Part shown: in pieces, positions 11,871 to 57,973 of the stretch
How the letters are laid out: every line of letters starts with the position of its first letter
How positions within the stretch are numbered: the first letter of the stretch is position 1
Source of the DNA: Shinella zoogloeoides
GTDB lineage: Bacteria; Pseudomonadota; Alphaproteobacteria; Rhizobiales; Rhizobiaceae
DNA length: 64,000 bases
Assembly (NCBI RefSeq): GCF_022682305.1
Contig: NZ_CP093528.1
Location: 186,001 to 250,000, forward strand
Direction of reading: 5' to 3'
The notes under the pieces: generated by a model
The model's database searches: none
Seen by the model: only the letters and a program-made list of their open reading frames with translations
Told to the model about the DNA's origin: nothing
Translations under genes and position numbers: made by a program

Positions 11871-11945
11871 GCTGCTATAGCTCAGGGGTAGAGCACTCCC
11901 TTGGTAAGGGAGAGGCCGAGAGTTCAAATCTCTCTAGCAGCACCA
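11871..11945 (+). tRNA. tRNA-Thr (GGT), integration target
   Basis: The cloverleaf has acceptor GCTGCTA pairing with TAGCAGC, anticodon stem CTCCC/GGGAG with loop TTGGTAA (anticodon GGT), T arm GAGTTCAAATCTC, and an encoded CCA. The 3' part of the gene lies inside the prophage att core, so the tRNA stays intact at the left junction. Confidence 0.95.
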
Positions 11946-11950
11946 TTCTT
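11894..11950 (+). repeat. attL core (57-bp direct repeat)
   Basis: Fifty-seven bases from the anticodon stem of tRNA-Thr to five bases past CCA are repeated exactly at 55708-55764, and the last 26-bp portion recurs at 62982-63007. The integrase gene stops 51 bp from it. This is the classic tRNA-site arrangement for tyrosine-recombinase phages. Confidence 0.95.
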
Positions 11951-12000: not shown

Positions 12001-13107
12001 TTATCGCTTCCGACCCACGGTCGCGGCGATGCTCTTCTGATACTCCGGGCTGTGGTGGCCATACACGTCTTCGAGCATTTTCGGGCTCATTCCCAGATAG
12101 TGCGCGGCGTCCCAAATCTCGGCGCCGGCGAGCATGAGCCAAGTTGCAGCGGTGTGCCGCAGGATGTGTGGCGTAACCTCCTTGCCGAGGCCGGCCGCAT
12201 CTCGCGCAGACGCCCATGCCTTTCTCTGCTTGTCGACGGGACTTCCGCGATAATGAATGACGAAGGCGATGGGCGGCTTCGCGGCCATATCTTCCTTTCG
12301 CCAGCGCTTCAGAAAACCCATCAGCCGATCCGGAATGCGAACTGTCGGTCGCCGCTTCTTGGTCTCCTGCTCATCGTCGCCGCGGCGATGGATCACGCCG
12401 GCGTCCACATCGATGTACCCGCCCAGGGTGTTCGGAACCCATCCGAGCCGTCGCATGGCTCCTGATCGCGTGCCGGTGTATAGGCCGATTAGGATCAGTC
12501 TCCGCAGCGCCCGACCGGCGTCCTTGCTCTCGGCCTTCCGTGTGGCCCACAGCAGGCGCGCCGCCTGGTCACGCCTGAGCCAATCCGGACGCGCGTCCGA
12601 AGCCTGCGGCAGCGTTACCACCGGCAGTGCATCGAGGGGCGTTTCGGCGTGGTAGGCGTTGATTGCGGCCCTGAGAACCGTGAGTTCGCGGCGCGCTGTT
12701 TCCGCGCTGACCAGTTTCGGCTCTTTCGCCTTCTTCGCCTGCCGAATCGACTGGGCGGTACGAAACGATACATAGTCCTGGCAAGAAGAGCGCTTGACGT
12801 CAGACAGGAACTTTCCCTGCCACCAGCTTAGAAGCCGCTCGATCGCGTAGCTGGTGGTATCAGATCGCTGCCCAGGCGCGATTTCCCGGGCGTAGAAGGT
12901 CAAGATGTCTTCGACACGGAGTCGAGACGGACGACTGTCGCTCGGCGGCTGATACTTTTCGCCGATGTATTCTTTGAGCCGTTCCTCAGCGCTCTCGCGC
13001 TCTGCAAGGCTGCAGCCAGTGCCGCGCTTTGTTGTTCCGTCTCGGATGTACCAGAGGCCTGACTTCTTGTCGTACCAGAGACGGGCTCCCTTTGCTGGAC
13101 GCGGCAT
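12001..13107 (-). CDS. int: Tyrosine-family phage integrase
   Basis: This 368-residue recombinase has an N-terminal arm-binding-like part (ARLWYDKKSGLWYIRDG), a SAM-like core and a C-terminal catalytic domain. The catalytic domain carries Arg in TGTRSGAMRRL, the HILRHTAATW box, the second His in YGHHSPEY and the tyrosine nucleophile in that last motif. The start at 13107 has GAGGGAAAG upstream. The stop lies next to attL, and the gene should catalyse integration at tRNA-Thr. Its first 208 bp overlap the upstream HTH gene in another frame. Confidence 0.93.
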   Translation of the reverse strand: MPRPAKGARLWYDKKSGLWYIRDGTTKRGTGCSLAERESAEERLKEYIGEKYQPPSDSRPSRLRVEDILTFYAREIAPGQRSDTTSYAIERLLSWWQGKFLSDVKRSSCQDYVSFRTAQSIRQAKKAKEPKLVSAETARRELTVLRAAINAYHAETPLDALPVVTLPQASDARPDWLRRDQAARLLWATRKAESKDAGRALRRLILIGLYTGTRSGAMRRLGWVPNTLGGYIDVDAGVIHRRGDDEQETKKRRPTVRIPDRLMGFLKRWRKEDMAAKPPIAFVIHYRGSPVDKQRKAWASARDAAGLGKEVTPHILRHTAATWLMLAGAEIWDAAHYLGMSPKMLEDVYGHHSPEYQKSIAATVGRKR

Positions 13108-13292
13108 CTTTCCCTCATTTCCCTTATCGCTGCGCGGGTAACGAAGTCGCGTCGGCCAATCCGCTCGATGACGAGATTGCCCCTCGCAGCCTCGGCCCTC
13201 AACGTGGCTGGCTTGATGGCTCCTCTGAACACGATACAGCAAGCCTCGGCAAGCGTCATGGGCTCATCGTCTTCAATGCTCTGAGCACTCAT
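12900..13292 (-). CDS. Excisionase-like small DNA-binding protein, overlapping int
   Basis: This 130-residue product has an N-terminal winged-helix/Xis-like segment (MTLAEACCIVFRGAIKPATLRAEAARGN, then RRDFVTRAAIREM) and a low-complexity Ser/Thr/Ala tail. Start at 13292 overlaps the upstream stop (ATGA). The C-terminal half overlaps int in another frame for about 208 bp, so the N-terminal part is the more credible functional unit. The position beside int suggests a directionality factor. That role is inferred. Confidence 0.65.
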   Translation of the reverse strand: MSAQSIEDDEPMTLAEACCIVFRGAIKPATLRAEAARGNLVIERIGRRDFVTRAAIREMRERCRVQQREPVSGTTRSQASGTSETEQQSAALAAALQSARALRNGSKNTSAKSISRRATVVRLDSVSKTS

Positions 13293-14729: not shown

Positions 14730-15099
14730 TGGTGCCTCTCGCAGTTAGGGTGTCGCACCAGGCGTGAAACCCGGTGATGATGGGTTTCACGTTGTCGGCG
14801 TCTGCCCATCCAGCGAAGCCAACGAAGGTCTTGTGGCTGAATGTGACGGCTTCCCGGTCCTCGAAGTAGCGCGAGCGGCATGTGAGAGCAGCCCAGCCGT
14901 TCGGCCAATCGACCGCCTTGATGCGCGGGTTCATCTTGAGGGTTCCATCAATGAGCTTGACGTTTTCCATCTCGACGGCGATGTGGTCGCGGAGGGACTG
15001 AAGATCCTCGAACGACAGGTCAGCGAAGGCTTTCCCTGTGGCGGCGAACCGCACCCGGGCGGTGTTGCGCGGCGAGGTATAGGTGTCGGTTTCAGCCAT
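14722..15099 (-). CDS. Phage hypothetical protein (gpW/DUF-like small early protein)
   Basis: This 125-residue product is not recognised. It begins MAETDTYTSPRN, contains a helical FEDLQSLRDHIAVEMENVK segment and a Trp-rich C-terminal half (VDWPNGWAALTCR, FVGFAGWADADN). It overlaps both neighbours by a few bases, which is evidence of real translation within the leftward operon. Confidence 0.6.
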   Translation of the reverse strand: MAETDTYTSPRNTARVRFAATGKAFADLSFEDLQSLRDHIAVEMENVKLIDGTLKMNPRIKAVDWPNGWAALTCRSRYFEDREAVTFSHKTFVGFAGWADADNVKPIITGFHAWCDTLTARGTND

Positions 15100-15316
15100 G
15101 GTCGACGTCCTTTGGATTGCTGGGGGTAAGGATCGCCTTCGCCGCGACAAGCCATGCGTCATACTCGGCGATGATGTTCGCGGCCCGTTGATCTGCCTCG
15201 TCCTCGATCATCAGCTCGCCGTTGACCGAATGAGCGCAGAAGATGTTCTCACGCTCGTCGGCGATGAAATCCGCCGCCTGGCGGAGAAGGCCACGGATGA
15301 TTGGATCACTCGACAT
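15092..15316 (-). CDS. Small phage hypothetical protein
   Basis: This 74-residue, acidic, helical protein (GLLRQAADFIADEREN, DQRAANIIAEYDAWLVAAK) starts at 15316 and overlaps the following gene start by eight bases. No family is recognised. Confidence 0.55.
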   Translation of the reverse strand: MSSDPIIRGLLRQAADFIADERENIFCAHSVNGELMIEDEADQRAANIIAEYDAWLVAAKAILTPSNPKDVDHG

Positions 15317-15521: not shown

Positions 15522-15879
15522 GGTCGCCCCCGTTCGCGGTAATGGTGTCCTCGGGCTCGTTCTCGTACGGGACGCGCTCAGCGAAAGCCTCGAGCGCCTT
15601 ATCGAGCGCGCAGGACTTCAAGCTCATGTCCTCGTTTACTTCCCAGAATTCACGGGCAGCGACGACAAGCTCGGTGACATCGGCGGGCAGAGTGCGCCGG
15701 TTCCAGGCTGCAACCCGCTGCTGGTCATCCTCGCGGTCCGACACGATGATATTTATGCTCGAGGCGATGCACGGATCATCGGACGGCGGGTGCATGAAGT
15801 GCTTTGCCGTGCGGTTCGAGAAGACGGCGCTCTCCTCGAGTTCGGCCGCGCAGAAGGGGCAAGGTGCGAGCTTAACCAT
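15514..15879 (-). CDS. Lar-family restriction-alleviation-like protein
   Basis: This 121-residue protein begins with the zinc-ribbon half CPFC and has the family signature VAAWNRR near residue 60. Lar (rac prophage) modulates type I restriction. Here only one CxxC is evident before AWNRR, so the zinc site may be incomplete. The C-terminal half is acidic and specific to this protein. Location in the early operon fits an anti-restriction role, which is inferred. Confidence 0.7.
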   Translation of the reverse strand: MVKLAPCPFCAAELEESAVFSNRTAKHFMHPPSDDPCIASSINIIVSDREDDQQRVAAWNRRTLPADVTELVVAAREFWEVNEDMSLKSCALDKALEAFAERVPYENEPEDTITANGGDHA

Positions 15880-16426
15880 GGTCGGCGTCCTTTGCTACGT
15901 TGGGGGTGCGGATGGCGGCGTTGCGATAGGCGTCGATAACGCTCAAGGCCTGCGACCTAGCATCGTCGAGCGCGTTGTGCGCCGTTCCGACGTAGGTGGG
16001 GCGTGTCCCAGTGAAATCGAGAAGCGTGCGCACGTCCCGCAGGGAACGATAATGCCAGGGCACGTGAAGCCGGCAGGCCTGAAACGCTGCCTCCAGCAGC
16101 ACGAGATCAAAGGATGGCGGCTTGGCCCATACCCGGGAGGCGTCGGCCCCGTGAGCAAAGTCGCTGAACTCACGCAGAGCGCAGTCGAGGGGCTGGCTTC
16201 CGGCAAACACGGCGTGGCGCGCATCGTCGGACTGGGTCATCCACCACTTTAGCGTGGATACGTCCATCCTGAGGCCGGCATCGACTGCGGACTGCGGGTC
16301 GATAGCGGAATAGAAATCCGCGCCAAGCGCGCCGGTTTCCGCATCGAAGGTGACCGCGCCAATACTGAGAATCACGCTTCCCGGGGCGGCGCCAAGTGTC
16401 TCGATGTCGATCATGAGGTCACGCAT
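15872..16426 (-). CDS. DnaQ-like 3'-5' exonuclease
   Basis: This 184-residue protein has the exonuclease motif I DIETLG at residues 7-12, motif II region FDLVLLEAAF and motif III HNALDDARSQA, so the DEDD metal-binding set is present. It resembles the phage exonuclease VIII/Rv2179c-like group. The ATG at 16426 lies inside the end of the reverse-transcriptase gene (eight-base overlap), so the two are translationally coupled. Whether it takes part in retrohoming is unknown; a general phage DNA role is equally possible. Confidence 0.8.
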   Translation of the reverse strand: MRDLMIDIETLGAAPGSVILSIGAVTFDAETGALGADFYSAIDPQSAVDAGLRMDVSTLKWWMTQSDDARHAVFAGSQPLDCALREFSDFAHGADASRVWAKPPSFDLVLLEAAFQACRLHVPWHYRSLRDVRTLLDFTGTRPTYVGTAHNALDDARSQALSVIDAYRNAAIRTPNVAKDADHG

Positions 16427-17453
16427 CGCCAGGGCCTTTCATCGGTGTGACGGGAATTGCGCGGCCGAGAGTGGCCGGCGGAACGTCAAGATTCTTGAGA
16501 AGATTGCGGCTGTCGGCCCAACGAGCGTGTCCGGTCCATGCTGCAAGGAAGCGCTCAAGGCGCAGGTGCTCTCCGGCGGTGCGGTAGGCCTTGATCTTTC
16601 GGCGGGCGCGCACCACGCTGTCGCGGCGCAGCAGCTTGTGCGTCGGCCAGATCCGATAACCGACGAAGTTCACGCCGCGGCTGACGGGCTGGATGCTCCA
16701 TTTGGAAAAGCGCAGGCCGAGACGTTCGCGGGAAAGCTCTTCGATGGAGGCGCGCACCTTGCGCAGGTGATCCGGATCGCGGCCGAGGACAACGATATCG
16801 TCCATGTAGCGATACCAGTACCGCTCGCCGAGATCCTGCTGGAGGTGACGGTCGACGACGCCGGCATAGATGTTCGCGAAAATCTGCGAGGTCAGGTTGC
16901 CGATAGGAAGGCCGATGCCTGTGCGCGGCAGCATGGCCTCCAGCAAGCGCAGGGTGGCCCGGCACGAGATTTTCGCCTCGATGATCTGCCAGAGCGCACC
17001 TCGCTCGATGGAGTAGAAGTAGCGTGAGAAATCCGTCTTCAGCGCGTAGAGCGGTCCGTCGCGATCCAGGCGGCGCATATCGGCCTGGAGGGTGATTGCC
17101 GCGGCATGGGTGCCCTTGCCCGGACGGCATGCGAAGCAGCGCGGCAGCAGGGTAGCATCGAAGATCGGCGCGATGACGCGGGCAACGGCCTGCTGTGCGA
17201 TACGATCCTCGAAGGGCAGAGCCGAGATCAGTCGTTCCTTCGGATCGAAGATGCGGAACTCGGCCGGCTCTCCCTGGATATAGGAGCCGTCGCGCATGGT
17301 GGCCGCCAGCAGATGCAGGTTGAGGACGGAGTATTCCTTGAATTCGAGATAGCCGGGGGTGAGGCGCTTGCCGCGCGCGGTCAGGCGCAGCGCCTCGCGC
17401 ATGTTGGCGTCGGCCGTGATCGATCCGATGAGGTTACGGTATTTCTTCGCCAT
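16419..17453 (-). CDS. DGR reverse transcriptase
   Basis: This 344-residue reverse transcriptase of the retron/group II-like lineage has the DGR-specific motif GNLTSQ (in place of the QGxxxSP of other families) and catalytic YMDD at residues 216-219. KTDFSRYFYSI supplies the first catalytic Asp and GVNFVGYRIW the late conserved block. It is predicted to make adenine-mutagenised cDNA from the TR RNA. The start at 17453 (MAKKYRNLI) is chosen although the frame stays open through the template repeat to 17807. It is the last retroelement gene before the DnaQ-like exonuclease. Confidence 0.95.
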   Translation of the reverse strand: MAKKYRNLIGSITADANMREALRLTARGKRLTPGYLEFKEYSVLNLHLLAATMRDGSYIQGEPAEFRIFDPKERLISALPFEDRIAQQAVARVIAPIFDATLLPRCFACRPGKGTHAAAITLQADMRRLDRDGPLYALKTDFSRYFYSIERGALWQIIEAKISCRATLRLLEAMLPRTGIGLPIGNLTSQIFANIYAGVVDRHLQQDLGERYWYRYMDDIVVLGRDPDHLRKVRASIEELSRERLGLRFSKWSIQPVSRGVNFVGYRIWPTHKLLRRDSVVRARRKIKAYRTAGEHLRLERFLAAWTGHARWADSRNLLKNLDVPPATLGRAIPVTPMKGPGDA

Positions 17454-17636
17454 GAGGGGCCTCGCGGCGAGACGCCGGCCGCGGGTTTCGACGGCGCGGA
17501 CGCCGCTACTCCCCGCTTTGCCGGACCTCGCAGTGTATTCGCCGAAGCTGGAAGGTTGGGCCGACCACCCTGACGCATTCGCGCCGGTGGAAAGTGGCCG
17601 ACGCGGCCGTGACCGTCGCCGAGCCGGAAAGGGGTC

Positions 17637-17757
17637 GTCGCAGGCGGCGCGGACGCCGAGGTTGCCGTTCGAATTGTCGGGCCAGTTGTCGAGGTTCGCG
17701 TAGCGCGAACCCGCGTTCGAGCCGTTGATCCAGGAGCCGCCGAAAATGGACGGGCGC
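17637..17757 (-). repeat. DGR template repeat (TR)
   Basis: This 121-bp non-coding copy of the variable region lies between avd (10 bp away) and the RT gene (183 bp away). On the minus strand it holds 20 adenines, 19 of them outside the invariant 3' end. Eight asparagine codons (AAC/AAT) dominate, the usual choice for maximal adenine-driven change. The 3' end runs into GACC, whereas the two VRs run into CACC, which marks an IMH*/IMH difference. It is probably transcribed as a structured RNA with the 5' part of the RT mRNA. Confidence 0.96.
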
Positions 17758-17767
17758 AACATAGCCA

Positions 17768-18136
17768 TTACCCCGACCTCCCATTGCCCTTCGCGGCGCG
17801 AATCCATGCTCCCAGCATCGCGCCGGTCTCGGCGATGTGGCGCAGCGCCACCTGATGCTTTCCGTGGGAGATCAGCTTTTCCGCAGTCGCAAAGCGCAAC
17901 CAGAAACGCAGCGTCGCCAGATGGGCATCCGCTGCATAGATCCGCGAAGGCTGTTTCGATTTCGCGGCCTGGTACAGGAGGCCGACCATGTCCATCAGCT
18001 GCCCGATCATGCTGTCGCGCAGCGCGCCGTGCCGGCGCGGGAAGGACTGGAGGATGGGATAGAGATAGGTCACGGTGGCCTCGTATTTCTCGACAATCGC
18101 CAGATCCCTGGCGTTCACATGTTCGTCGCGGTGCAT
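17768..18136 (-). CDS. avd: DGR accessory variability determinant (Avd-like)
   Basis: This 122-residue basic, all-helical protein has the bAvd-type four-helix pattern (IVEKYEATVTYLYPILQSFPRRHGALRDSMIGQLM, LLYQAAKSKQ, LRFWLRFATAEKLI). Avd forms a pentameric barrel that binds the RT and nucleic acid and is needed for mutagenic retrohoming. The start at 18136 is the best Met. The frame extends to a TTG at 18181 inside the VR1 hairpin, and no strong ribosome-binding site is seen, so the start is uncertain. TR follows ten bases after the stop. Confidence 0.9.
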   Translation of the reverse strand: MHRDEHVNARDLAIVEKYEATVTYLYPILQSFPRRHGALRDSMIGQLMDMVGLLYQAAKSKQPSRIYAADAHLATLRFWLRFATAEKLISHGKHQVALRHIAETGAMLGAWIRAAKGNGRSG

Positions 18137-18163
18137 GGCTGGCGATCGTCCGGTTCGGGAGGA

Positions 18164-18183
18164 ATTTGCGCTATCGCGCAAAT
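18164..18183. other. Hairpin/cruciform downstream of VR1
   Basis: A perfect 8-bp inverted repeat (18164-18171 with 18176-18183) has a four-base loop, GATA on the coding strand. It ends 17 bp from the edge of VR1 and contains the VP1 stop codon. A hairpin in this place is required for target recognition in the Bordetella phage DGR. Confidence 0.88.
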
Positions 18184-19115
18184 CCGGCAGGGTTCAGGTG
18201 GTCGCAGGCGGCGCGGACGCCGAGGCTGCCGAGCGAAAGGCCGGGCCAGTAGTCGAGGTACGCGCAGCGCGAACCCGCGCTCGAGCCGTCGAGCCAGGAG
18301 CCGCCGAAAAAGGACGGGCGCGGATCGTCAGGGTGTTCGTCGGTGCCTCGCTGCCACATGGTCCCGGTCGCATCGATAACGCCGCGGCGGCTGACGAAGC
18401 GGGCACCGCCATCCTCCATGCTTGCGGTCTTCACCGGGTCCTTGCTCCGCGAGCAGCGCTCCTTGACACCGTAGGCGCCGGCGAAGGCCTCTTCCGCGCC
18501 GATCAGGCGCTTACCGTGGTGCGCGCAGATCTCGACGGCCGTCGCGTGGTCGAGCTTCGCATATCTGCCCTTGCCGTCCAGGCGCTCGGGCAGGTCGCGT
18601 CCATCGGCGATGGTCGCGCCGCAGCGACTTGTGCCCTGCAAGTGATCGGCCGCGAGGAGATAGATATCCTCCCAGAAAAGGCGACCCTGACCGATCTCGA
18701 CCAGCGTCATGCCGCGCGGGTCCGGGCACGCCGGGCGGAAGCCGATATCCCATGAGGAATAGGGATTGATGGAGGGGGTACCGTCGCCGCCCTCGGTTCC
18801 TTCCGCGCAGCCGCTGGGGGCAAAATGGAACCCGGCGACGAAGCCGTTGGCGAGGGGATTGGCCGGCGCCAGTACCGTGGCGAAAGGCTTTCCGTTCTCA
18901 TGGATGCCGACGCCATAATCGTAGCCAGGCACGAGCGCCCCGGCGACGCCGAGCGGCGTATCCGTGTCGAAGCCGTAGGTGCCGCCATCGATCCGGATCA
19001 CGGTTCCCGCACGAATGCCAACTGCTTCCTTGCCGGAAACGTAGAGGATCGGCGCCGCAAGGTCGGCGCGCTCGATGATGATGTCATGCTGCTTGACTGC
19101 GGCGGCTGCCGTCAT
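18171..19115 (-). CDS. DGR variable protein 1 (C-type-lectin/FGE-sulfatase fold)
   Basis: This 314-residue target protein has an N-terminal part (residues 1-120) of unrecognised beta-rich fold containing GYDYGVGIHENGKPFA. The C-terminal FGE/CLec-type domain carries GTSRCGATIADG, GAYGVKE, the FFGGSW turn and the variable region ending GVRAACDHL. The FGE active-site cysteine pair is not apparent, so this is a binding rather than an enzymatic protein. The start at 19115 has AAAGGA upstream. No signal peptide is present. It is about half identical to VP2 from the FHFAP segment on. Confidence 0.92.
   Translation of the reverse strand: MTAAAAVKQHDIIIERADLAAPILYVSGKEAVGIRAGTVIRIDGGTYGFDTDTPLGVAGALVPGYDYGVGIHENGKPFATVLAPANPLANGFVAGFHFAPSGCAEGTEGGDGTPSINPYSSWDIGFRPACPDPRGMTLVEIGQGRLFWEDIYLLAADHLQGTSRCGATIADGRDLPERLDGKGRYAKLDHATAVEICAHHGKRLIGAEEAFAGAYGVKERCSRSKDPVKTASMEDGGARFVSRRGVIDATGTMWQRGTDEHPDDPRPSFFGGSWLDGSSAGSRCAYLDYWPGLSLGSLGVRAACDHLNPAGFAR
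18201..18321 (-). repeat. DGR variable region 1 (VR1)
   Basis: It aligns without gaps to TR at an offset of 564 bp. Thirteen positions differ, all at template adenines (coding-strand A to G, C or T), and none at the other 101 positions. Eleven of the 12 adenine-containing codons outside the fixed end encode a different residue. Confidence 0.96.
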
Positions 19116-19144
19116 GGTCGTAATCCTTTGCTGTAGGGAGGGTG

Positions 19145-19166
19145 CGCCCGCGCTTTCGCGCGCGCG
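19145..19166. other. Hairpin/cruciform downstream of VR2
   Basis: A GC-rich inverted repeat (19145-19153 with 19158-19166; eight pairs and one mismatch) has the loop GAAA on the coding strand. It ends 17 bp from the edge of VR2, the same distance as at VR1, although the stem sequences are unrelated. It lies just after the VP2 stop. Confidence 0.85.
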
Positions 19167-19168
19167 GA

Positions 19169-20050
19169 TCAGGTGGCCAGGTGGTCGCAGGCGGCGCGGA
19201 CGCCGAGGCCGCCGCCCGAAACGTCGGGCCAGACGTCGAGGTCCGCGCAGCGCGAACCCGCGAGCGAGCCGAAGAGCCAGGAGCCGCCGAAAATGGACGG
19301 GCGCGGGTCGTCGGGATCGCCGTCGGTGATCCAGCCCCAGACGTTGCCCGTGGCCTGCATGCTGCCGGTGGCGCTGGTGCGGGCGGCGTCGAGGCCGGTC
19401 ATCTTCGGATGCCCGTCGGCGGAACTGCGCTCCGTGACGCCGTAGGCGCTGGCACGGGCCTCGTCATAGGTCGACAGGCGCTTGCCGTATTTCGCAAGGA
19501 TCTCGACCGCGTCGTGATAGTTCAGGCGGTCGAGCGTTTCGCCGGTGGCGATGGTCGCGCCGCAGCGGCTCGTGCCGTAACGTTCGTGTTCGGTGCCAAG
19601 CCAGTAGATGTCATCCCAGAAGAGATGCGCGCCCCCGACCTGTACCAGCTTCATGCCGCGTGGATCCGGGCAGGCCGGGCGGAAGCCGATATCCCAGAGC
19701 GAGCAGGGATTGATGGCCGGCGTCGCGTCGCCGCCGGAGCGGGCCGAGGCGTTGCCGCCCGGTGCGAAATGAAAGCCGCCGATGCAGCCGGCGTCGATGG
19801 GGTTCTCCGGGCCAAGCAGGGAGGCGAAGGGCCGGCCTTCATCGAGGCGCACACCGTAATCCTCGCCTGGGATAAGATCGGGGACGGCAATCTCGGTGTC
19901 GCCAGGGAAGGTGAAGGCGCCGGCGTCGCCGTTGATCAGGGTGCCGGCGCGAATGGCGAGCGAAGCGCCGGAGGAAAGGAAAATCGTGGCGGATGCGTTG
20001 GCGCGCTGGATGCCGAGAGCGGGCGACTTGATGGATGCGTTCACGTTCAT
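19169..20050 (-). CDS. DGR variable protein 2 (C-type-lectin/FGE-sulfatase fold)
   Basis: This 293-residue paralogue of VP1 has an N-terminal part with IQRANASATIFLSSGASLAIRAG and GEDYGVRLDEG, then FHFAPGG, WDIGFRPACPDPRGM, GTSRCGATIATG and the CLec-type end with SIFGGSW and GVRAACDHL. Start at 20050 forms an ATGA overlap with the upstream 68-residue ORF and has GGAGAA upstream. The frame to 20197 is rejected. No signal peptide, membrane segment or tail-fibre motif is visible. Which ligand it binds is unknown. Confidence 0.92.
   Translation of the reverse strand: MNVNASIKSPALGIQRANASATIFLSSGASLAIRAGTLINGDAGAFTFPGDTEIAVPDLIPGEDYGVRLDEGRPFASLLGPENPIDAGCIGGFHFAPGGNASARSGGDATPAINPCSLWDIGFRPACPDPRGMKLVQVGGAHLFWDDIYWLGTEHERYGTSRCGATIATGETLDRLNYHDAVEILAKYGKRLSTYDEARASAYGVTERSSADGHPKMTGLDAARTSATGSMQATGNVWGWITDGDPDDPRPSIFGGSWLFGSLAGSRCADLDVWPDVSGGGLGVRAACDHLAT
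19184..19304 (-). repeat. DGR variable region 2 (VR2)
   Basis: It aligns without gaps to TR at an offset of 1547 bp. Fifteen positions differ, all at template adenines, and none elsewhere in 121 bp. The pattern of changes is mostly different from VR1, so the two targets have diversified separately from one template. Confidence 0.96.
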
Positions 20051-28168: not shown

Positions 28169-30064
28169 ATGTTCCGGGAAACGCTTTTCGCTTCCTCCGT
28201 CGCCGCGCCGCCCCGTTCCGCGCGTCCGCTTATCGTCGACAGCTTCGCCGGGGGCGGCGGCGCTTCGACCGGGATAGAAATGGCCCTCGGCCGCTCGCCC
28301 GATATCGCCATCAACCATAACCCGGCGGCGCTGGCGCTGCATGCGGCGAACCATCCCGATACCCTGCATCTGTCGGAGAATATCTACCGGGTCGACCCGC
28401 TCGACCATGTTGCCGGCCGGCATGTCGGCCTCGCGCATTTCTCACCGGACTGCAAGCACTTCTCCAAGGCGAAGGGCGGCAAGCCCGTCGAGCGCAATAT
28501 CCGCGATCTCGCCTGGATCATCGTGCTGTGGGCGGAGCGGGCGAAACCCGACGTCATCACCATGGAGAATGTCGAGGAATGGAAGGACTGGGGTCCGCTC
28601 GTCGAGACGGATCGCGGCCTGATGCCGGATCCGGAGCGCCGCGGCGAGACCTTCAAGGAATGGCTGAAGGCCATGCGGAAGCACGGCTATCGCCGGATCG
28701 AATGGCGCGAGCTTCGGGCCTGCGATTACGGCGCGCCCACCATCCGTAAGCGCCTGTTCCTCGTCGCAAGGCGCGACGGCAAGCCGATCGTGTGGCCGGA
28801 GCCGACACATGGCGCGCCAGGCGATGCCGATGTTGCCGCCGGCAGGAAGCTGCCATGGCGCACGGCGGCGGAATGCATCGACTGGTCGCTGCCGTGCCCG
28901 TCGATCTTCGATACCGCCGCGGAGATATGGGAAAAATACAAGCTTCGCGCAGTCCGGCCGTTGGCTGCCGCCAGCATGGCGCGTGTCGCCCGTGGAACGG
29001 GTCGTTACGCGGTTCGCGTCAAGCATGCCGTGATCGTGCCCTCGGTCGTGCGCTTCAATACGGGAGCTACCGGCCAGGATGTGCGCGAGCCGTTGTCCAC
29101 GATCACGGCAGACAGCTACATCAAACGGCCCGGCGGATGCGCTCCGCTCGGGATCATTGCGCCTCACCTGATGACAATGCGGAATGCGGGAAAGCCGTTC
29201 AATGGGGCGGACGAGCCTGCACATACGATCACAGCCGGCGGCGCAGGTCTCACTGTTGTCGTTCCGACGCTCGTTGGTTGCGGCGGCAGGTCGGGACAGT
29301 CCCGTCCGCGCACCGGGGACGAGCCGATGGCGACAATCACGGCAAAGGCGGACACCTGCGTCGCGGCGGTCTTTCTGGCCCAGCATAATAACGATTCGCG
29401 CCGCGATGGGGGCGTGAACCCTGGGAGGTCGGCGAACGAGCCGATGTCTACCGTAACCCAGAGCGGCAGCCATCAGGGTGTTGTCTCCGCCTTCGTCGCT
29501 CGCCAGTTTGGCGCGAGCGTCGGCCATGGCGCCGATGAACCATCAGCGACGGTCACCGCCGGCGTCAACAAGTCGCAACTCGTGGCCCCCTTCCTGCACG
29601 CCTATTATGGGAGCGATCAGGATACCCCTGAAACAGAGCCGTTCCATACCGTCACGACGAAGCCCCGCTTCAGCCATGTTGAATGCGAACTTGCGATCCC
29701 TCCCTTCACCGAGGACATGGCGCCTCGGGCACGGGAGGTCGCGGATTTCCTGCGCTCACACGGCGTCTGGGATGAGCGCGAATTCGTCACGATGGAGGTC
29801 GACGGGCTGACCCTCGTCATGACGGACATCGGTATGCGCATGCTGACGCCGCGCGAGCTTTACAACGCGCAAGGGTTCCCGCCTGACTACGTGATCGACG
29901 GCGGATGGCAGGTCGACGAGGCAACCGGTGACCCGGTCTGGATCGGCTTCCCGAAATCCGTACAGGTCTCCTGCGTCGGCAACAGCGTCTCGCCGCCGGT
30001 GATGGCCGCGCTGGTCGCGGCGAATTGCCCGGACCTTGCCGCATGGCGGGAGGCGGCGGAATGA
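28169..30064 (+). CDS. DNA cytosine-5 methyltransferase (phage type)
   Basis: This 631-residue C5 methyltransferase has motif I DSFAGGGGASTG, the catalytic-site SPDCKHFSKAKGG (Cys nucleophile in PDC), ENVEEW motif, RKRLFLVARR (motif VIII) and a terminal GNSVSPP (motif X). Between VIII and the end are six imperfect repeats around EPxxTIT. The first Met with a ribosome-binding site (GAGGAGCTGG) is 28169. A 13-codon peptide (28128-28169) leads into it by TGATG overlap. Expected role is protection from host restriction. Confidence 0.93.
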   Translation: MFRETLFASSVAAPPRSARPLIVDSFAGGGGASTGIEMALGRSPDIAINHNPAALALHAANHPDTLHLSENIYRVDPLDHVAGRHVGLAHFSPDCKHFSKAKGGKPVERNIRDLAWIIVLWAERAKPDVITMENVEEWKDWGPLVETDRGLMPDPERRGETFKEWLKAMRKHGYRRIEWRELRACDYGAPTIRKRLFLVARRDGKPIVWPEPTHGAPGDADVAAGRKLPWRTAAECIDWSLPCPSIFDTAAEIWEKYKLRAVRPLAAASMARVARGTGRYAVRVKHAVIVPSVVRFNTGATGQDVREPLSTITADSYIKRPGGCAPLGIIAPHLMTMRNAGKPFNGADEPAHTITAGGAGLTVVVPTLVGCGGRSGQSRPRTGDEPMATITAKADTCVAAVFLAQHNNDSRRDGGVNPGRSANEPMSTVTQSGSHQGVVSAFVARQFGASVGHGADEPSATVTAGVNKSQLVAPFLHAYYGSDQDTPETEPFHTVTTKPRFSHVECELAIPPFTEDMAPRAREVADFLRSHGVWDEREFVTMEVDGLTLVMTDIGMRMLTPRELYNAQGFPPDYVIDGGWQVDEATGDPVWIGFPKSVQVSCVGNSVSPPVMAALVAANCPDLAAWREAAE

Positions 30065-31287
30065 GCCATGACGCAACCAATTGGGCGATCAAGCAGCGCG
30101 GCATAAAACCGGCGCTGAAGGTGGTGCTATGGAACCTCTGCGACCGCTATCATCCGGACAACGGATGCTTCCCCAGTCAGGACACGCTGGCCGCCGATTG
30201 CGAGGTGCCGCGCTCGACCCTCAACGTCTACCTGAAGGAGCTGGAGGACGCCGGCCTGATCGCCCGCGAGCAGCGCCGCGAGCGTGGTTCGAACAGGCAG
30301 GAGCGGACGCGCTACCGGTTCCCCTTCGAGCCTGATTTCCCAGAGAAAACCACACCAAATCCGAGTCCAGAATCTGGACACGGGGCCGAGTCCAGAAATG
30401 ACGTCGAGCCGAGTCCAGAAAATGGCGAAAGCCGAGTCCAGAATCTGGACAGTAACCCTGTAAGGGAACCAGTAAAGGAAACCGGTAAGGGGAGAGAGGG
30501 CGAGCGCGAGGCGCGGGAAGGGGTGCAGGAGCCGTGTGGCGATGCGGTCGTGGAAACGCCGGCCTCGGTCGAGCGGGCCTTCCGCCGATGGTTCCCGACC
30601 TGGCCGAGCTATGTCAGTGACAGCGAGGACGCCGCCCGCAAGGTTTGGTTCGATCTCTGTGCTGCCGACCGGGCAAGCGCTATCGACCGGATGGGCGATT
30701 ATCTCGAAGCGGTGAAGGGAAGCGGCCGCAAGATCATCTGCTCGGCAGCCGTCTACCTGCGGGAGCGCCGCTGGGAAAAACTGCCGGCCAGGGCTGCCGT
30801 CGAACAAACCGCAGGTCCGGAAGGGCCTTTCGGCAAGGCTTGGGGAGCGAAGCGGCTCTGCGAACTGATGCAGCCGCACCGCCCGCTTCCGGCCCTGCCC
30901 GGGTTCATCGAGCGGATGATCCTCGACGGCAAGCTCGACAGGGCCAGCGAAGAGCGTTCGCGCCTCGCAAAGTTCGGATGGCCGGTCGTGACCGACATGC
31001 ACGAGCGGGCGGCGAGTTGCCGCGGCGTGCTGGTGTCCCAATCGATCAAGGCGCTCGGGGCCGGGTTTGTGCCCGTGAAGGTGGGGAGCGAGATGTGGGA
31101 GGCGTGGCGCCGCCTGCACGAGCGCCGGAGCTGGCCATGGCTGCCAGACACGGGCCGCCAGCAGTTCGTGTATTTCCCGCCGCCGCCGGATGGCGTGGGC
31201 GGGAGCGTGGATGATGCCGTGGCCATGGCCATGGCGGAATTCGAGGCGTTGGCGAGGGGGATGAGAGGCGATGAACATGCAGCATAG
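30061..31287 (+). CDS. HTH replication-initiation-like protein
   Basis: This 408-residue protein has an N-terminal HTH_36-type winged helix (VVLWNLCDRYHPDNGCFPSQDTLAADCEVPRSTLNVYL), a repetitive Pro/Ser/Glu linker with NPSPESG-type repeats, and a C-terminal helical domain. Proteins of this layout initiate replication in many phages (O-protein/DnaC-adjacent type). The partner helicase loader gene is not seen. Start overlaps the methyltransferase stop. Function is assigned by domain and position only. Confidence 0.7.
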   Translation: MSHDATNWAIKQRGIKPALKVVLWNLCDRYHPDNGCFPSQDTLAADCEVPRSTLNVYLKELEDAGLIAREQRRERGSNRQERTRYRFPFEPDFPEKTTPNPSPESGHGAESRNDVEPSPENGESRVQNLDSNPVREPVKETGKGREGEREAREGVQEPCGDAVVETPASVERAFRRWFPTWPSYVSDSEDAARKVWFDLCAADRASAIDRMGDYLEAVKGSGRKIICSAAVYLRERRWEKLPARAAVEQTAGPEGPFGKAWGAKRLCELMQPHRPLPALPGFIERMILDGKLDRASEERSRLAKFGWPVVTDMHERAASCRGVLVSQSIKALGAGFVPVKVGSEMWEAWRRLHERRSWPWLPDTGRQQFVYFPPPPDGVGGSVDDAVAMAMAEFEALARGMRGDEHAA

Positions 31288-40806: not shown

Positions 40807-41001
40807 ATGGATCTTTACCGACCTGCGCAGGGGCGGCGCGTGCCGCTGCCTGGCAGCAATCAGGCCTGGCCGGCGAGCGGCCTGCCGGCCGATCTCTCCA
40901 ATCCGTATGTCGCGCGGCTCGTGCGCGACGGCGATCTCGAAAAAGTCCCGGCAACGGAGGGCCAGCGGAAGGCCCGGAAACCCGCAGGAGATGACGCATG
41001 A
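40807..41001 (+). CDS. DUF2635 family protein
   Basis: This 64-residue protein matches DUF2635 (Mu gp38-like), with the signature RRVPLPGSNQAWPASG and VARLVRDGDL. It is typically placed immediately before the sheath gene of Mu-like tails and overlaps it here. Confidence 0.8.
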   Translation: MDLYRPAQGRRVPLPGSNQAWPASGLPADLSNPYVARLVRDGDLEKVPATEGQRKARKPAGDDA

Positions 41002-42503
41002 CCAGCAATATTCCGGGCAACCTGACGGCCCCGATCCTCGCCTTCGACGTCACGTCCGGCGGGCAGTTCGAAAACGAGAGCCGCGTGATCCTGATCGGCC
41101 ACGGCCTCAGCACCGCCACGCTCGCCCCCGGCGCCGTCGCTATCTGCTCGTCCTCGATGGACGCCCGCATCCTTGCAGGGGCAGGGTCTATGCTGGAAGG
41201 CATGTTCCTTGCCGCCAGGCGCAACGCGCCCGCGCAGGAAATCTGGATCGGCAATGTCGCCGACACGGGTACGGTGGAGGTGCGCACGATCACCTGCTCG
41301 GCTCCTCCTGCCGCCGGCGGGCAGGGTATTCTCTCCATCGCCGGCCGGACGATCTCCATCGAGATCGCGGCCGGGGCGACAGCGGCGAATGTCGCCACCG
41401 CTCTCGTCACGGCGATCAACGGCTATTATGACCGGCTGTCGAAGCGCTCGCTGCCGTATACGGCGGCTATCGACGGGGAGGACGCGACGATCGTCCGCGT
41501 TACCGCCCGCCATAAGGGTGTCTATGCCGCCGGGCATGATTTCCACATTCCGGTTTCCGACGGAAACAATGCCTTCACCGGCAAGCTCGCTTTCGCCACC
41601 GCGACGGCCGGCGCCGGCGTGCCGGACATCTCCAATGTCCTGGCGGCTATGGGCGACGATCCCTTCGAAACGATGATTTCAGCCTTCGGGGATACCGATA
41701 ATCTCACGAAGGCGACCGGCTTCCTCAACAACATCTCCGGCCGCTGGTCCTACGCGCAGCAGCTTTACGGCCACTACTTCTACACAAAGACCGGATCGTC
41801 GGCGGATATCACCACGGCCGGCCTTGCGCGGGACAACTGGCACCTGACCCTCGTGCCTCGGCTCGCCTCCGGCGGTAACGCGGAGCCGGACTACGAATTC
41901 CTCGCCGGTATCATCGGGCGCATCGCGCCCTGGCTCGGCGGCGGTTCGAATGGCGACGTCTCGCGCAACCAGACCGGCCTCATCGTCGACGGTGTCTCGA
42001 CGCCGCGCGATCGTGGGTACTGGCCGGAATACGAGACGCGCGAGGCCTGGCTGAAGAACGGCGTCTCGACGTGGAAGGTCTCGCGCACCGGCGAGGTGAC
42101 GATCGACAAGATCATCACGCAGCAGCAGACGACGAACGGCGCGCCGGACACGACGTTCCGCGATATCCAGCGGCCCTACCAGCTGATGTACGCGCTGAAG
42201 AAGTTCCGGGCGGACCTCGCTGCCGAGCATTCCAACAAGGCGATCTCCAACGACAATCCGGACAACCTCGATGCGCTGACCACGGTGAAGGACATCAAGG
42301 CGACGCTGGTGCACAGCTACCTGGAGATGTCCGGCGTGCTGGAGAACGCCAACGCGGCGATCGAGGCGATGACGGTGGTGCGCGATCCAGAGAACCCGAA
42401 CCGCGTCAACATTCATCTGCCGCTCGACTTCGTGAACCCGCTCGACATCTTCGCGGGTCTCGCCGTCGCCAACAGCCAGATCAACACCAATCTCGCGGCC
42501 TGA
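40998..42503 (+). CDS. Contractile tail sheath protein
   Basis: This 501-residue Mu gpL-type sheath has the subtilisin-like-domain text and LNNISGRWSYAQQLYGHYFYTKTGS, and the C-terminal TTVKDIKATLVHSYLEMSG conserved block. It shows that the phage is a myovirus. It polymerises around the tube and contracts during infection. Confidence 0.93.
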   Translation: MTSNIPGNLTAPILAFDVTSGGQFENESRVILIGHGLSTATLAPGAVAICSSSMDARILAGAGSMLEGMFLAARRNAPAQEIWIGNVADTGTVEVRTITCSAPPAAGGQGILSIAGRTISIEIAAGATAANVATALVTAINGYYDRLSKRSLPYTAAIDGEDATIVRVTARHKGVYAAGHDFHIPVSDGNNAFTGKLAFATATAGAGVPDISNVLAAMGDDPFETMISAFGDTDNLTKATGFLNNISGRWSYAQQLYGHYFYTKTGSSADITTAGLARDNWHLTLVPRLASGGNAEPDYEFLAGIIGRIAPWLGGGSNGDVSRNQTGLIVDGVSTPRDRGYWPEYETREAWLKNGVSTWKVSRTGEVTIDKIITQQQTTNGAPDTTFRDIQRPYQLMYALKKFRADLAAEHSNKAISNDNPDNLDALTTVKDIKATLVHSYLEMSGVLENANAAIEAMTVVRDPENPNRVNIHLPLDFVNPLDIFAGLAVANSQINTNLAA

Positions 42504-47875: not shown

Positions 47876-48412
47876 ATGCTTCGCATCATTCCGCTCGACG
47901 AGAGCGAGGAACCCTACCGCGCGCCGGATATCGGATGGGACGGCGTTGCTGGAGACCTGATCCTCAATGCGCTTGACCATCCGACCGCGCCCGGCGACCT
48001 GCGCGCCGAGCAGGGCCTTGCAACGCAGGTGCTGATCCACCTGATGACGGATCGCCGTGTCGAGGAAAGCGAATTGCCGGAAGGCGAGCAGAACCGGGGA
48101 TGGTTCGGCGACAGCTTCGACCTGATGGACGGCGAAGGGCCGCTCGGCTCGCGGCTGTGGCTGCTGCGCCGGCGGGAAATCTACGAAGGCATCGAGATCG
48201 ATGTCGACGACTATGTGCGGGAGGCCCTGGAGCCGCTGATCGCACAGGGCGCGGTCGCCTCGATCGACGTGGCGGTGACCGTCGACCGGCCCGGCAACCG
48301 GGTCGACTACGTCGTGACGTTGACCGGCCGTGACGGCGCCCGGGTCTATGAACGGAAATTCGAACTTCTCTGGAGGCAGATCAATGGCGTGGTCCATCCG
48401 CTCGCTGGCTGA
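47876..48412 (+). CDS. Mu gp46-like baseplate wedge protein
   Basis: This 178-residue protein carries EQNRGWFGDSFDLMDGEGPLGSRLWLLRRREI, the gp46 hallmark, and a C-terminal SIDVAVTVDRPGNRVDYVV segment. It belongs to the LysM/gp25-like wedge complex. Confidence 0.88.
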   Translation: MLRIIPLDESEEPYRAPDIGWDGVAGDLILNALDHPTAPGDLRAEQGLATQVLIHLMTDRRVEESELPEGEQNRGWFGDSFDLMDGEGPLGSRLWLLRRREIYEGIEIDVDDYVREALEPLIAQGAVASIDVAVTVDRPGNRVDYVVTLTGRDGARVYERKFELLWRQINGVVHPLAG

Positions 48413-49463
48413 GGCATCGCAGGCAATCCGCGGTGCTTTCCGGCAGCATCTTCCCGGAACGGATACCGCGCTCAAGAACAACTTCGTGACGGTCGTCACG
48501 AAAGTGCTGGCCGGCATGTCGCAGGAATTCGAACTGCGCATGGGCTTCGTTGCGCGCCAGATCTTCGCGCGGACGGCATCGCTGCCCTTCCTTATTCTGC
48601 ATGGCGCCGATGTCGGAATCTTCCGCAAGCCGGCTGCCGCTGCAAGCGGCGTCATCGAAGGCGTCGGCGAACCCAACAAGGTCTATCCTGCGGGAGTGCG
48701 TTTCGTCTCCGGCAACAATACCTACATTTCGACGTCTCCTGCGCAGACAAGCCCGGTCGGTGTCGTATTCTTCGCCGTTACCGCCGAAGACAGGGGGAGC
48801 GTCACAAACCGTGCGGCGGGTGGTCTCCTGACGCTTTCAGCCCCCGGGCTGGAGCCGACGTTGGGAAACAACTTCACCGTCACGGCTGCAGGGCTTGGTG
48901 GCGGCGCAGACATTGAGGACATCGAGGAGCTGCGGGGGCGTGTGCTTTTCCGCAAGGCGAACCCGCCCGGCGCCGGGAAGCTCTCGGATTACGAGCGTAT
49001 CGTGCGAGACGTGCCTGGCGTCCTGAAGGCCTGGGCCTATCGCGACGGAGTGACGCCTTCGTTCCTGGTGGTGTTCTTTCTGTTCGACGGCCGGCCGGAT
49101 CGGATTCCGACGGAGGGTGACAGGATCGTCGTGCAGGCCGCCGTCGATGAACATCGCCTGATCCGTGTCAACGACAGCGTGGTCGAGGCTCCGACACCCG
49201 CGCCGCTGAACCCGATCATCGCAAATCTCATGACCGACAGCTCGGACGTGCGGATGCGCATCGCCGCCGCGATCGATCAGGTACTTTACGAGAAGGCCAG
49301 ACCCGGTGTTGCCGGCGATGTGTTCTGGCTCTCGCGCAGCTGGATATCGGAAGCTGTTTCCGGCGTGGTCGGCGAGGATAGTCACGAGCTTCGATGGCCG
49401 CTCGACGACCTGCCCTATACGGGTGGCCGGTATCCGGTCGCCGGCACCATCAGCTTTGTTTGA
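48384..49463 (+). CDS. Baseplate J-like protein (Mu gp47)
   Basis: This 359-residue protein matches baseplate J/gp47 (AGVRFVSGNNTYISTS, ADIEDIEELRGRVLFRKANPPGAGKLSDYERIVRDVPGV). It joins the wedge between gp46 and the sheath. Start at 48384 has GGAGG upstream; the frame from 48330 is upstream of that. Confidence 0.9.
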   Translation: MAWSIRSLAEASQAIRGAFRQHLPGTDTALKNNFVTVVTKVLAGMSQEFELRMGFVARQIFARTASLPFLILHGADVGIFRKPAAAASGVIEGVGEPNKVYPAGVRFVSGNNTYISTSPAQTSPVGVVFFAVTAEDRGSVTNRAAGGLLTLSAPGLEPTLGNNFTVTAAGLGGGADIEDIEELRGRVLFRKANPPGAGKLSDYERIVRDVPGVLKAWAYRDGVTPSFLVVFFLFDGRPDRIPTEGDRIVVQAAVDEHRLIRVNDSVVEAPTPAPLNPIIANLMTDSSDVRMRIAAAIDQVLYEKARPGVAGDVFWLSRSWISEAVSGVVGEDSHELRWPLDDLPYTGGRYPVAGTISFV

Positions 49464-55707: not shown

Positions 55708-55764
55708 CACTCCCTTGGTAAGGGAGAGGCCGAGAGTTCAAATCTCTCTAGCAGCACCATTCTT
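55708..55764 (+). repeat. Prophage attR / left end of the second island (57-bp direct repeat)
   Basis: Exact copy of 11894-11950: anticodon arm and T arm of tRNA-Thr and the CCA. It lacks the 5' half of the tRNA, so it is not a functional gene. It is also the left boundary of the second island. Confidence 0.95.
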
Positions 55765-55838
55765 CTCCGTTGTTTTTCAAATAGTTGAATGATGGCAAGC
55801 CGTTGAGGTGGCCCGACTCCTATACAAGGGTCGTGTAC

Positions 55839-57131
55839 ATGGTGCTTCGAATGGCGAATCCGACCAAGAATAAACACGGGGTCTATATGTACGCCGTGCG
55901 CGTTCCTACCGATCTCGTTGAGGCCGTGGGGAAGCGGGTCTACTCGATTTCATTGCGGACAAAAGACCCTAAAATCGCTCGCGAACGCTTCAACGCGATG
56001 GTGGCGCAGAAAGATCGCGAACACGCTGCCCTGCGCCGAGCGCCTGAAGCCATTTCTTTCGCGTCTATTGTGGCCATGGCTGGCGAGGTCTACCGCGAGC
56101 AGAGGGCTAATGCCGAGGTGGCAGCGGGGCCGGGTGATTTGGGGATGATCTGGGAAGCTCTCAACGCCCGTGCTGAGAACCGCCCTTGGCTGGCAGAAGT
56201 CGCCGATGCAAAGTTGTTGGAACACGGCCTGTCTGGCGATCAGCGTAGCCGTGAGCTTCTTGCGGAGAAGGTGGCCGATGCGTTCCGCAGCCTTGCGGGG
56301 GAGGTCTCCAAGATGGAGCGTGGGGACTTCTCCCCCGACCCAAACCTGTCCAAGTTCTCGGCAGCGGAAGCGGCCAAGCCGACGAAAGGCACCGCCGTTA
56401 CGGAGTTGCTGGCCCTGTGGGAGCGGGAGCATTTGGCCCACGGCAGGGCCGCAAAGACCACCGCCGACTATCGGAACATCGTGAAGCATTTCACCAAGCA
56501 CGTCGGCCATGACGACGCCAGCAGGGTGACGCGCGGCATAATCAAAAACTTCTGTGACCATTTGGTACATGAGAAGGGTCTATCCGCGAAGACGGTCAAC
56601 GGCCGCTACCTGACCTGCCTAAAGGCAATCTTCCGGGTGGGCTATGAGCGCGAGCTGATCGACCACAATCCAGCCGCAGCCGTTCAACAGAAGGTCGTAA
56701 AGAAGGCGCAGAGCCGCCCACCGGGCTTCACTGACGCAGAGGCCAAACTGATCCTATCCCTTGCCAACCGGGCCATGCTGCCCCCGTCTGACGGGTCCAG
56801 AGACCGGCGCTCCATGCATAACAAGCGAGTCGCCAGGTGGGTGCCTTGGGTCTTGTGCTACACGGGCGCGCGGGTTGCTGAGATAACGCAGTTGCGCAAA
56901 GAGGATGTGCAGGAGACGGAAGGCGTCCCGTTCATTCGGATCACGCCTGAGGCCGGGAGCGTGAAGACCGGGCAATATCGTGACGTGCCGCTACATCCAC
57001 ATCTTGTCGAGATGGGTTTCCTTGATTTCGTCCGAGCGTCACCAGAGGGGCCGCTGTTCTATGAGGCCAAGACCGAAGCCAAGCGCAAAGGCAAGGGAAT
57101 CACGCAACCGCAGTGGGCTGGCAATGAGCTA
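55839..57131 (+). pseudogene. Truncated tyrosine integrase of the second island
   Basis: About 430 residues of a DUF6538/tyrosine-recombinase-like integrase (NKHGVYMYAVRVPTDLVEAVGKRVYSIS, then the catalytic Arg region CYTGARVAEITQLRKED) run up to a TA immediately before the IS at 57132. The HxxR box and nucleophilic tyrosine are missing; the stop at 57216-57218 lies in the IS. Start at 55839 is preferred over 55785. Confidence 0.88.
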
Positions 57132-57148
57132 GGCTCAGGACTCGTTGA

Positions 57149-57538
57149 TCAGAGCCAGAAGATAACGGTTGCAGCGAGAGCGATGGCGGAGAGAAAGGCC
57201 ATTGGGCATCTGTCGTAGCGCGTAGCGACACGCCGCCAGTCTTTGAGACGCCCGAACATGATCTCGATCCGGTTGCGCCGTTTGTAGCGGCGTTTGTCGT
57301 ATTTGATGGTCTTGTTGCGGGATTTGCGACCCGGAATGCAGGGCGTGATCCCCTTCGCCTGTAACGCGTTACGATACCAGTCGGCATCATAGCCACGGTC
57401 GGCCAGCAGCCACTTGGCCTTGGGAAGCTCATCAAGCAAGGCGGCAGCACCGGTGTAATCGCTGACCTGACCGGCTGTTATGAAGAAACTGATCGGGCGA
57501 CCACTCGCATCCGTTACGGCATGAAGCTTGGTGTTCAT
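57149..57538 (-). CDS. IS5-family transposase, second frame (orfB)
   Basis: This 129-residue C-terminal part has MNTKLHAVTDASGRPISFFITAGQVSDYTGA (DDE second Asp region) and RNRIEMFGRLKDWRRVATRYDR-type end (E). IS427-group elements express the full transposase by frameshift from orfA. Confidence 0.85.
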   Translation of the reverse strand: MNTKLHAVTDASGRPISFFITAGQVSDYTGAAALLDELPKAKWLLADRGYDADWYRNALQAKGITPCIPGRKSRNKTIKYDKRRYKRRNRIEIMFGRLKDWRRVATRYDRCPMAFLSAIALAATVIFWL

Positions 57539-57558
57539 GCCGCCTTTCGTGCGTCCGA

Positions 57559-57909
57559 TCAGGCGGCCCGCGCCCCCTTTTTTACCCGCAGGCTGGAAGC
57601 CGTGCGGTGGGCCTTGAGATAGGTCGCGTCGATCATAATCGTCTTGCGATCCGTTGCCTCAGGCAAAGCCAAGCCTTCCATCATCTGGATAAAGATGCCC
57701 TTGTCGCCCCAGCGCTTCCAGCGGTTATAAAGCGTCTTGGCCGGGCCATATTCCTTCGGCGCATCGCACCACCGGAGACCGTTGCGGTTGACGAAAATGA
57801 TGCCGCTCAGAACGCGTCGGTCATCAACGCGCTGGCGACCATGGCTCTTGGGAAAATAAGGCTGAAGACGGGCCATCTGCTCGTCCGTCAGCCAAAACAA
57901 ATTACTCAT
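57559..57909 (-). CDS. IS5-family transposase, first frame (orfA)
   Basis: This 116-residue N-terminal part (DEQMARLQPYFPKSHGRQRVDDRRVLSGIIFVNRNGLRW, MIDATYLKAHRTA with the first Asp) ends before the second frame. Together they make one DDE transposase. Confidence 0.85.
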   Translation of the reverse strand: MSNLFWLTDEQMARLQPYFPKSHGRQRVDDRRVLSGIIFVNRNGLRWCDAPKEYGPAKTLYNRWKRWGDKGIFIQMMEGLALPEATDRKTIMIDATYLKAHRTASSLRVKKGARAA

Positions 57910-57973
57910 CAGTCGGGCTCCTATACGCCCGTCTGAATCACAGCCGTCAGTTCAAATCAATGGGTCCTGACCC

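Follow-up and report, generated by a model that had tools for sequence, protein, structure and literature searches.

A diversity-generating retroelement (DGR) was found in a 43.8-kb prophage of the 5.14-Mb Shinella zoogloeoides genome, within a stretch of 64,000 nucleotides (positions 186001-250000 of contig C1) that is referred to here as the window. The cassette lies wholly on the minus strand and its parts run leftward in the order target 2 (T2), target 1 (T1), avd, template repeat (TR), Phage_DGR RNA and reverse transcriptase (RT), with a variable region (VR) at the 3' end of each target gene. In this prophage DGR the TR, Avd and RT are very probably the parts that would rewrite the 3' ends of two genes resembling mtd of phage BPP-1, which likely encode receptor-binding tail proteins. 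The cassette comprises:

16419..17453, minus strand: DGR reverse transcriptase, 344 aa; Pfam RVT_1 E 1.4e-16, GNLTSQ and YMDD motifs intact
17474..17609, minus strand: Phage_DGR structured RNA between TR and RT; Rfam RF03022, 65.4 bits against a gathering score of 50, E 6.8e-9
17637..17757, minus strand: TR, 121 bp, 20 adenines
17768..18136, minus strand: Avd accessory gene; Pfam bAvd E 5.5e-26, start at an inner ATG of the open reading frame (ORF)
18171..19115, minus strand: T1, Mtd-type, 314 aa; Mtd second domain PF21916, 33.9 bits
18201..18321, minus strand: VR1, 121 bp, 13 differences from TR, all at A
19169..20050, minus strand: T2, Mtd-type paralogue, 293 aa; PF21916 (mtd_2nd), 23.6 bits against a cut-off of 24.6
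19184..19304, minus strand: VR2, 121 bp, 15 differences from TR, all at A

The three repeats align without gaps, and the computed alignment confirmed what a sequence-only reading of the window had claimed, namely that all 28 differences between the TR and the two VRs fall on adenines. These differences are confined to the 20 TR adenines; a check for numerous non-adenine differences found none at the other 101 positions of the core. The hypergeometric chance that every difference would fall on adenine is 7.9e-13 for VR1 and 2.9e-15 for VR2. Eleven adenines are changed in both VRs and the same base is found in four of them, which is about the expectation under independence. All TR adenines occupy codon position 1 (nine) or 2 (eleven), and the replacing bases in VR1 and VR2 combined are G (13), T (10) and C (5). 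A search of the whole genome recovered three copies of the repeat (E 2.5e-71, 6.4e-41 and 3.3e-38; next match 0.014), with no further VR among the matches up to E 1. Together with the alignments, this search bears out the earlier proposal that two paralogous targets with 3' VRs share one TR.

DGR reverse transcriptases are marked by a GxxxSQ motif. The RT and the Avd-like gene recognized in the sequence-only reading were both recovered by profile searches, with both RT motifs located and the bAvd profile search covering 17768-18133. The best match to the window RT among phage records is BPP-1 Brt, with an identity of 53% in the alignment (54% by tblastn), and three other relatives reach 74-79%. 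The RT start is most likely at 17453 rather than at 17807 because the longer ORF from the latter would engulf the TR; the 17453 start is common to the four aligned relatives. The Phage_DGR RNA adjoins the TR on the 3' side.

Outside the VR, T1 and T2 are 48.5% identical. T2 was found to match PHROG 11262 (E 2.3e-67), Mtd in the PDB (E 1.5e-42) and, with Foldseek, structure 1yu3 (E 4.6e-22), and the predicted models of the targets match the Mtd fold, a C-type lectin (CLec) fold, with a low predicted local distance difference test score (pLDDT) in the VR part. A match to PF21916 is present in all 48 members of the T2 alignment at E 0.001. The Mtd N-terminal domain (PF18454) is absent from T1, T2 and the same 48 members, and we therefore call the two targets Mtd-type rather than Mtd. 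A search for this domain with a 37-position model of limited sensitivity hit BPP-1 but neither the genome nor any of 14 related phage records; a separate gene that might supply it was likewise not found in the genome with this short model. No close relative of T2 was found among 50,697 records of isolated phages, the best match having 36% identity. Two records named Escherichia phage T7 (LR745708 and LR745707) contain an Mtd-like stretch in gene 17, which encodes the tail fibre; this stretch is possibly engineered.

The cassette lies about 4 kb from an integrase gene on the same strand, and the baseplate genes are 31 kb away on the opposite strand. A survey of 16 related phage records gave an integrase match in 14, two of them under the family cut-off. 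The integrase is at most 10 kb from the RT in 13 of the 14 and also on the same strand in 12, the exceptions being L064, where it occupies the far contig end, and L073, where it is on the opposite strand. Every record with a Baseplate_J match (8/8) has it on the strand opposite to the DGR at a distance of 26-37 kb, and the tape-measure gene (PhageMin_Tail) is also on the opposite strand in all eight records having one (nine matches, one under the cut-off). In L049, L050, L054, L055 and L058 the DGR follows baseplate genes. These positions suggest a relocation of the cassette to the integrase arm within this branch.

We infer a tail role for the two targets, and two observations speak against it: the Mtd N-terminal domain is missing from both proteins and was not found elsewhere in the genome, and the target genes lie far from the tail genes. 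They would instead fit secreted, cytoplasmic or surface binders that the DGR serves and that are produced in the lysogen or soon after induction, an alternative that we regard as unlikely though deserving of some weight, given that the cassette is part of the leftward integrase arm and runs opposite to the tail genes. Such binders are harder to reconcile with a PHROG tail-protein family and the Mtd fold, and no signal peptide was obvious in the targets as judged by eye only, with no predictor run. In addition, Mtd_N was found in only 3 of the 20 distant relatives scanned, so that its absence is weak evidence.

Relatives of the cassette were collected through RT searches that yielded 46 loci from genome contigs, the best 80 from viral contigs and then 31 more, which together with L013 and the window gives 159 loci. 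An RT match at E 1e-30 was present in five of the 394 host-family genomes, the genome under study included. The MurA protein of the host has its closest named matches at 90-91% identity (Rhizobiales bacterium 63-7, Ensifer and Gellertiella), and unnamed ones reach 94%. Pairs of TR and VR were identified with a script that allows changes at adenines and penalizes others and so favours VRs that match at non-adenine positions; owing to this bias, a second count was made of the target genes themselves, using tblastn with the VR part removed. Nineteen of the 159 loci were dropped from the tallies and the tree as near-duplicate or degenerate, and a few close pairs (for example L165/L166) stayed. Among the 140 roughly non-redundant loci, 18 yielded no VR, 80 have one, 41 have two and one has three; two targets therefore recur in this branch. 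A wider search of these 18 loci, kept outside the tally, detected a VR in L024 and doubtful candidates in L056, L099 and L130. When target genes and VRs were counted together, two of each were found in 41 loci, three of each in one and one of each in 74. One locus (L166) has two target genes and a single VR, five have a VR and no counted target gene, 13 have neither, and five have a target gene only (L020, L024, L105, L131 and L159, with L024 gaining its VR on the wider search).

Second VRs are distant or oddly placed in L029, L102, L149, L150, L157 and L167. In L157 (7015-11734) the second VR is downstream of the RT, and in L102 (2718-2793) it is on the opposite strand, 6.4 kb away. In L013, the RT contains one internal TGA and the VR matches its TR with one non-adenine difference.

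The rewriting of both VRs from one TR, as claimed in the sequence-only reading, is indicated by 26 related two-target loci, the window included, and by three pairs of relatives. Some of the 26 loci are close kin and hence not independent, and L031 is represented by the two VRs closest to its TR. Changes relative to the TR affect 298 of the 580 adenines in VR1 and 312 in VR2 (51-54%), as against 10 and 5, respectively, of the 2517 other bases. Of the 173 adenines changed in both VRs, 73 have the same new base in each (0.42; expected 0.385; p 0.31), and the base changes in VR1 and VR2 accordingly look independent in these alignments.

The three related pairs are 94-96% identical and differ in both VRs, mostly at TR adenines. 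L096 and L146 have no difference in the TR (0/123) and 192/3946 in the rest of the locus, with 18 in VR1 and 10 in VR2; all 28 of these are at TR adenines (P 7.7e-17 for VR1 and 1.4e-8 for VR2). L076 and L077 differ at 164/3033 positions of the rest, at 3 in the TR, at 20 in VR1 (19 at A) and at 17 in VR2 (14 at A), and the corresponding values for L075 and L078 are 216/3809, 2, 15 (13 at A) and 16 (14 at A). The p value for an excess of VR differences over the flanks is below 0.005 in five of the six tests. Among single-target relatives, L112 and L113 have 20 differences in the VR, 19 of them at TR adenines, and none elsewhere (0/4032), and L115 and L116 have 14 in the VR (13 at A) and 3/4028 elsewhere.

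Several observations count against two live targets. VR2 of L096/L146 is not significantly faster than its flanks (p 0.08), though its changes are all at adenines, and target genes without a matched VR occur in L020, L105, L131 and L159. All five comparable two-target pairs with at least 99% identity (L017/L071, L064/L065, L073/L171, L084/L085 and L096/L097) have identical VRs, so that no change is seen within a near-clonal two-target population; some of these pairs may come from the same isolate or sample. Four other pairs at this level of identity, in which one or no VR is covered, are outside this count (L083/L084, L083/L085, L167/L168 and L047/L082). Viral-contig scans, two of them taking the best 80 loci, did not give a near-identical two-target pair with differing VRs; the loci of a further such scan, many of them already in the set, were left out of the analysis.

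The unchanged pairs, the majority of single-target relatives and the unmatched second gene of L166 would all be in keeping with only one live target, the other gene being a passive duplicate that still resembles a VR. We consider this improbable. A passive copy would gather non-adenine differences as the TR drifts, whereas in the 26 loci both VRs differ from the TR at only 0.2-0.4% of the non-adenine bases. Furthermore, matched VRs number two in 41 of the 42 loci that carry two target genes, and the three related pairs changed in both. A diversification of VR1 and VR2 by recombination with each other instead of from the TR hardly merits consideration. The two genes are indeed similar tandem neighbours, but base changes at the adenines altered in both VRs appear to be independent, and outside the adenines each VR agrees with the TR on its own. 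The cassette is best described as a BPP-1-type DGR that is likely to be working with two live targets.

Immediately 3' of the VRs, and just outside the 121-bp core, further features were found that may mark the target sites:

17636, minus strand: base directly 3' of the core; TR has G, VR1 and VR2 have C; putative IMH*/IMH-like (initiation of mutagenic homing) boundary
18164..18183, minus strand: hairpin after VR1; perfect 8-bp stem, half A/T, loop GATA; DNA fold -9.4 kcal/mol, z -4.15
19145..19166, minus strand: hairpin after VR2; stem of 5 bp, one mismatch and 3 bp, loop GAAA; DNA fold -12.7 kcal/mol, z -1.81

Position 17636 is the one non-adenine difference, directly outside the core, and the same G-to-C step after the core occurs at 109 of the 164 VRs of the roughly non-redundant set, with other changes at the remainder. 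BPP-1 needs a hairpin/cruciform just past its VR, and the phage examples have GC-rich stems of 7-10 bp with 4-nt GRNA loops (PMC3240598). The hairpins of the window depart from this description, as the VR1 stem is half A/T and the VR2 stem is imperfect and only modestly better than shuffled sequences. The VR2 hairpin is the weaker structure of the two, with 6 of 200 shuffles folding as well. In the stretch after the window TR there is no hairpin with a GRNA loop and the folding is no better than that of shuffles (z -0.76). Among the relatives, a GRNA loop with a stem of at least 5 bp follows 117 of 164 VRs and none of 122 TRs; with a stem of at least 6 bp the numbers are 98 VRs and no TR, and six VRs are without any such loop.

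From the TR, with Avd and RT, a cDNA mutated at adenines would be produced and would then take the place of the variable 3' ends in both neighbouring Mtd-type genes. As in BPP-1, the hairpins and the G/C boundary may direct this cDNA to the VRs while sparing the TR. Rewriting of both genes would likely vary what the phage attaches to.

The age of the target pair was examined with a tree of 116 target proteins from which the VR part had been removed, built by a quick search without bootstrap and rooted at the midpoint. Nine target rows were too short for it (one each of L033, L086, L119, L126 and L166 and both of L084 and L148), and 19 of the other 135, from distant loci, were left out. In a first tree 15 loci had no usable frame, and the later tree passed over frameless loci. 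The genes on the VR1 side form one clade of 28 rows with full support in the Shimodaira-Hasegawa-like approximate likelihood-ratio test (SH-aLRT 100). This clade contains the T1 of 26 multi-target loci from Rhizobium, Shinella, Mesorhizobium and others, together with the single targets of L018 and L019; within it, L031 has three targets and L142 has the order swapped. The genes on the T2 side are not one clade under the drawn rooting. The pairs of L025, L106, L143, L155 and L161, among others, fall outside the T1 clade, and these other two-target sets therefore look like separate events.

T1 and T2 of the same locus are 42-60% identical, and the pairs have been kept while the RTs diverged to 69-92% identity with the window RT. 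Distance matrices correlate between T1 and T2 (0.81), T1 and RT (0.71) and T2 and RT (0.69; Mantel p 0.0002 each), as would be expected if the cassette is inherited together. A recent duplication of the target was rejected on the 48.5% identity in the window and the support for the T1 clade. By these comparisons the two-target pair is an old, kept arrangement. The pair would stem from a single old duplication, and its retention by phages may reflect different ligands, or different places, for the two copies.

The window DGR resembles that of BPP-1 in the order target-avd-TR-RT, in an RT of 53-54% identity, in a GRNA-loop hairpin after the VR and in a target homologous to Mtd residues 59-378. 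It differs in having two targets instead of one, both without the Mtd N-terminal domain, and in its position, since mtd adjoins a tail fibre gene in BPP-1 whereas the window cassette occupies the integrase arm, with the tail genes on the other strand. BPP-1 is a podovirus, whereas the window phage is contractile-tailed by its genes, as a tail sheath gene is present. The gut phages nd4 and nd12 likewise have one TR and two VR-bearing CLec-type targets (tentaclins), but these are of different topology and one VR lies near the 5' end of its gene (PMC10743442), in contrast to the window targets which are both Mtd-type with 3' VRs. The DGR of Treponema denticola also has one TR with several VR-bearing targets, although the extra targets are remote on a bacterial chromosome (PMC4891356).

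The sequence-only reading had also presented two targets as unusual, and here its argument from rarity is weak. Multiple VRs were reported in 271 of 948 DGRs, 216 of these with one TR (PMC6642488), about 13% of DGRs are quoted as having two target genes (PMC10743442), and two VRs are found in the 41 of 140 loci counted above. Multi-target DGRs have thus been described before, and a second target is by itself no novelty; what is new is the pair as an old, kept arrangement, a long-kept two-gene form of a known system and not a new system. The text available from the multi-VR survey describes no conserved Mtd pair (PMC6642488), and among the matches listed in a search of open-licence literature no title or abstract concerns an Mtd pair in Rhizobiales phages. 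Activity of a DGR in lysogen cultures and in packaged virion DNA has been described for the hankyphage (PMC12135933).

A broader proposal, which we hold to be possible but doubtful, is that a clade of temperate Rhizobiales phages carries two anciently split Mtd-type binders that are mutated independently from one template to give combinatorial specificity. In this proposal the cassette would have moved from a late tail operon to the integrase arm, with the binders being diversified and made under lysogeny-arm control before tail assembly. Homologous tandem targets with both VRs in step with one template provide a clean natural system for studying how a single template can suit two protein scaffolds, and whether a second target serves to bind a second receptor, to form a mixed oligomer or to allow a choice of expression.

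The prophage assignment made from the letters alone is upheld by perfect attachment (att) repeats of 57 bp that bound the element, one of them overlapping a tRNA-Thr gene. The features of the prophage outside the cassette are:

11871-11945: tRNA-Thr gene
11894..11950, no strand assigned: left att repeat, 57 bp, identical to 55708-55764; overlaps the 3' part of tRNA-Thr
12001..13242, minus strand: integrase adjoining tRNA-Thr; Pfam Phage_integrase E 1.9e-13
40998..42503, plus strand: tail sheath; PHROG 165 E 3.9e-112; strand opposite to the DGR
48330..49463, plus strand: baseplate wedge gene; PHROG 6 E 2.7e-41; about 31 kb from the DGR
55708..55764, no strand assigned: right att repeat, 57 bp, identical to 11894-11950

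The left arm contains, on the minus strand, the integrase, a second integrase-like gene, an exonuclease-like gene and the DGR. The right side carries, on the plus strand, a GpA-type terminase, capsid, tail sheath, tape measure, baseplate genes, fibre-like genes and an endolysin.

A second integrating element apparently lies in tandem behind the prophage (55708-63010). An integrase-like ORF, named by eye, directly follows the right att repeat (55785-57218, plus strand), and a third, partial att-like copy at 62954-63010 is 65% identical over 57 bp with the tRNA end kept. An Rfam ALIL pseudoknot (59320-59436, 112.7 bits) overlaps a transposase-like ORF at 59362-60267, and another such ORF is found at 60819-61649, both ORFs being named by eye. 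A 51-bp unit in perfect head-to-tail duplicate at 58935-59036 overlaps a long reading frame.

Two further repeats were observed within the prophage. At 30357-30451, inside the ORF 30025-31287, three 24-nt repeats (two close copies and one of 71%) are arranged around the palindrome TCCAGAATCTGGA and might be an initiator-binding cluster. In the left arm, a 41-bp repeat (78%) at 15096-15136 and 15876-15916 lies near the starts of two minus-strand ORFs or the ends of their neighbours.

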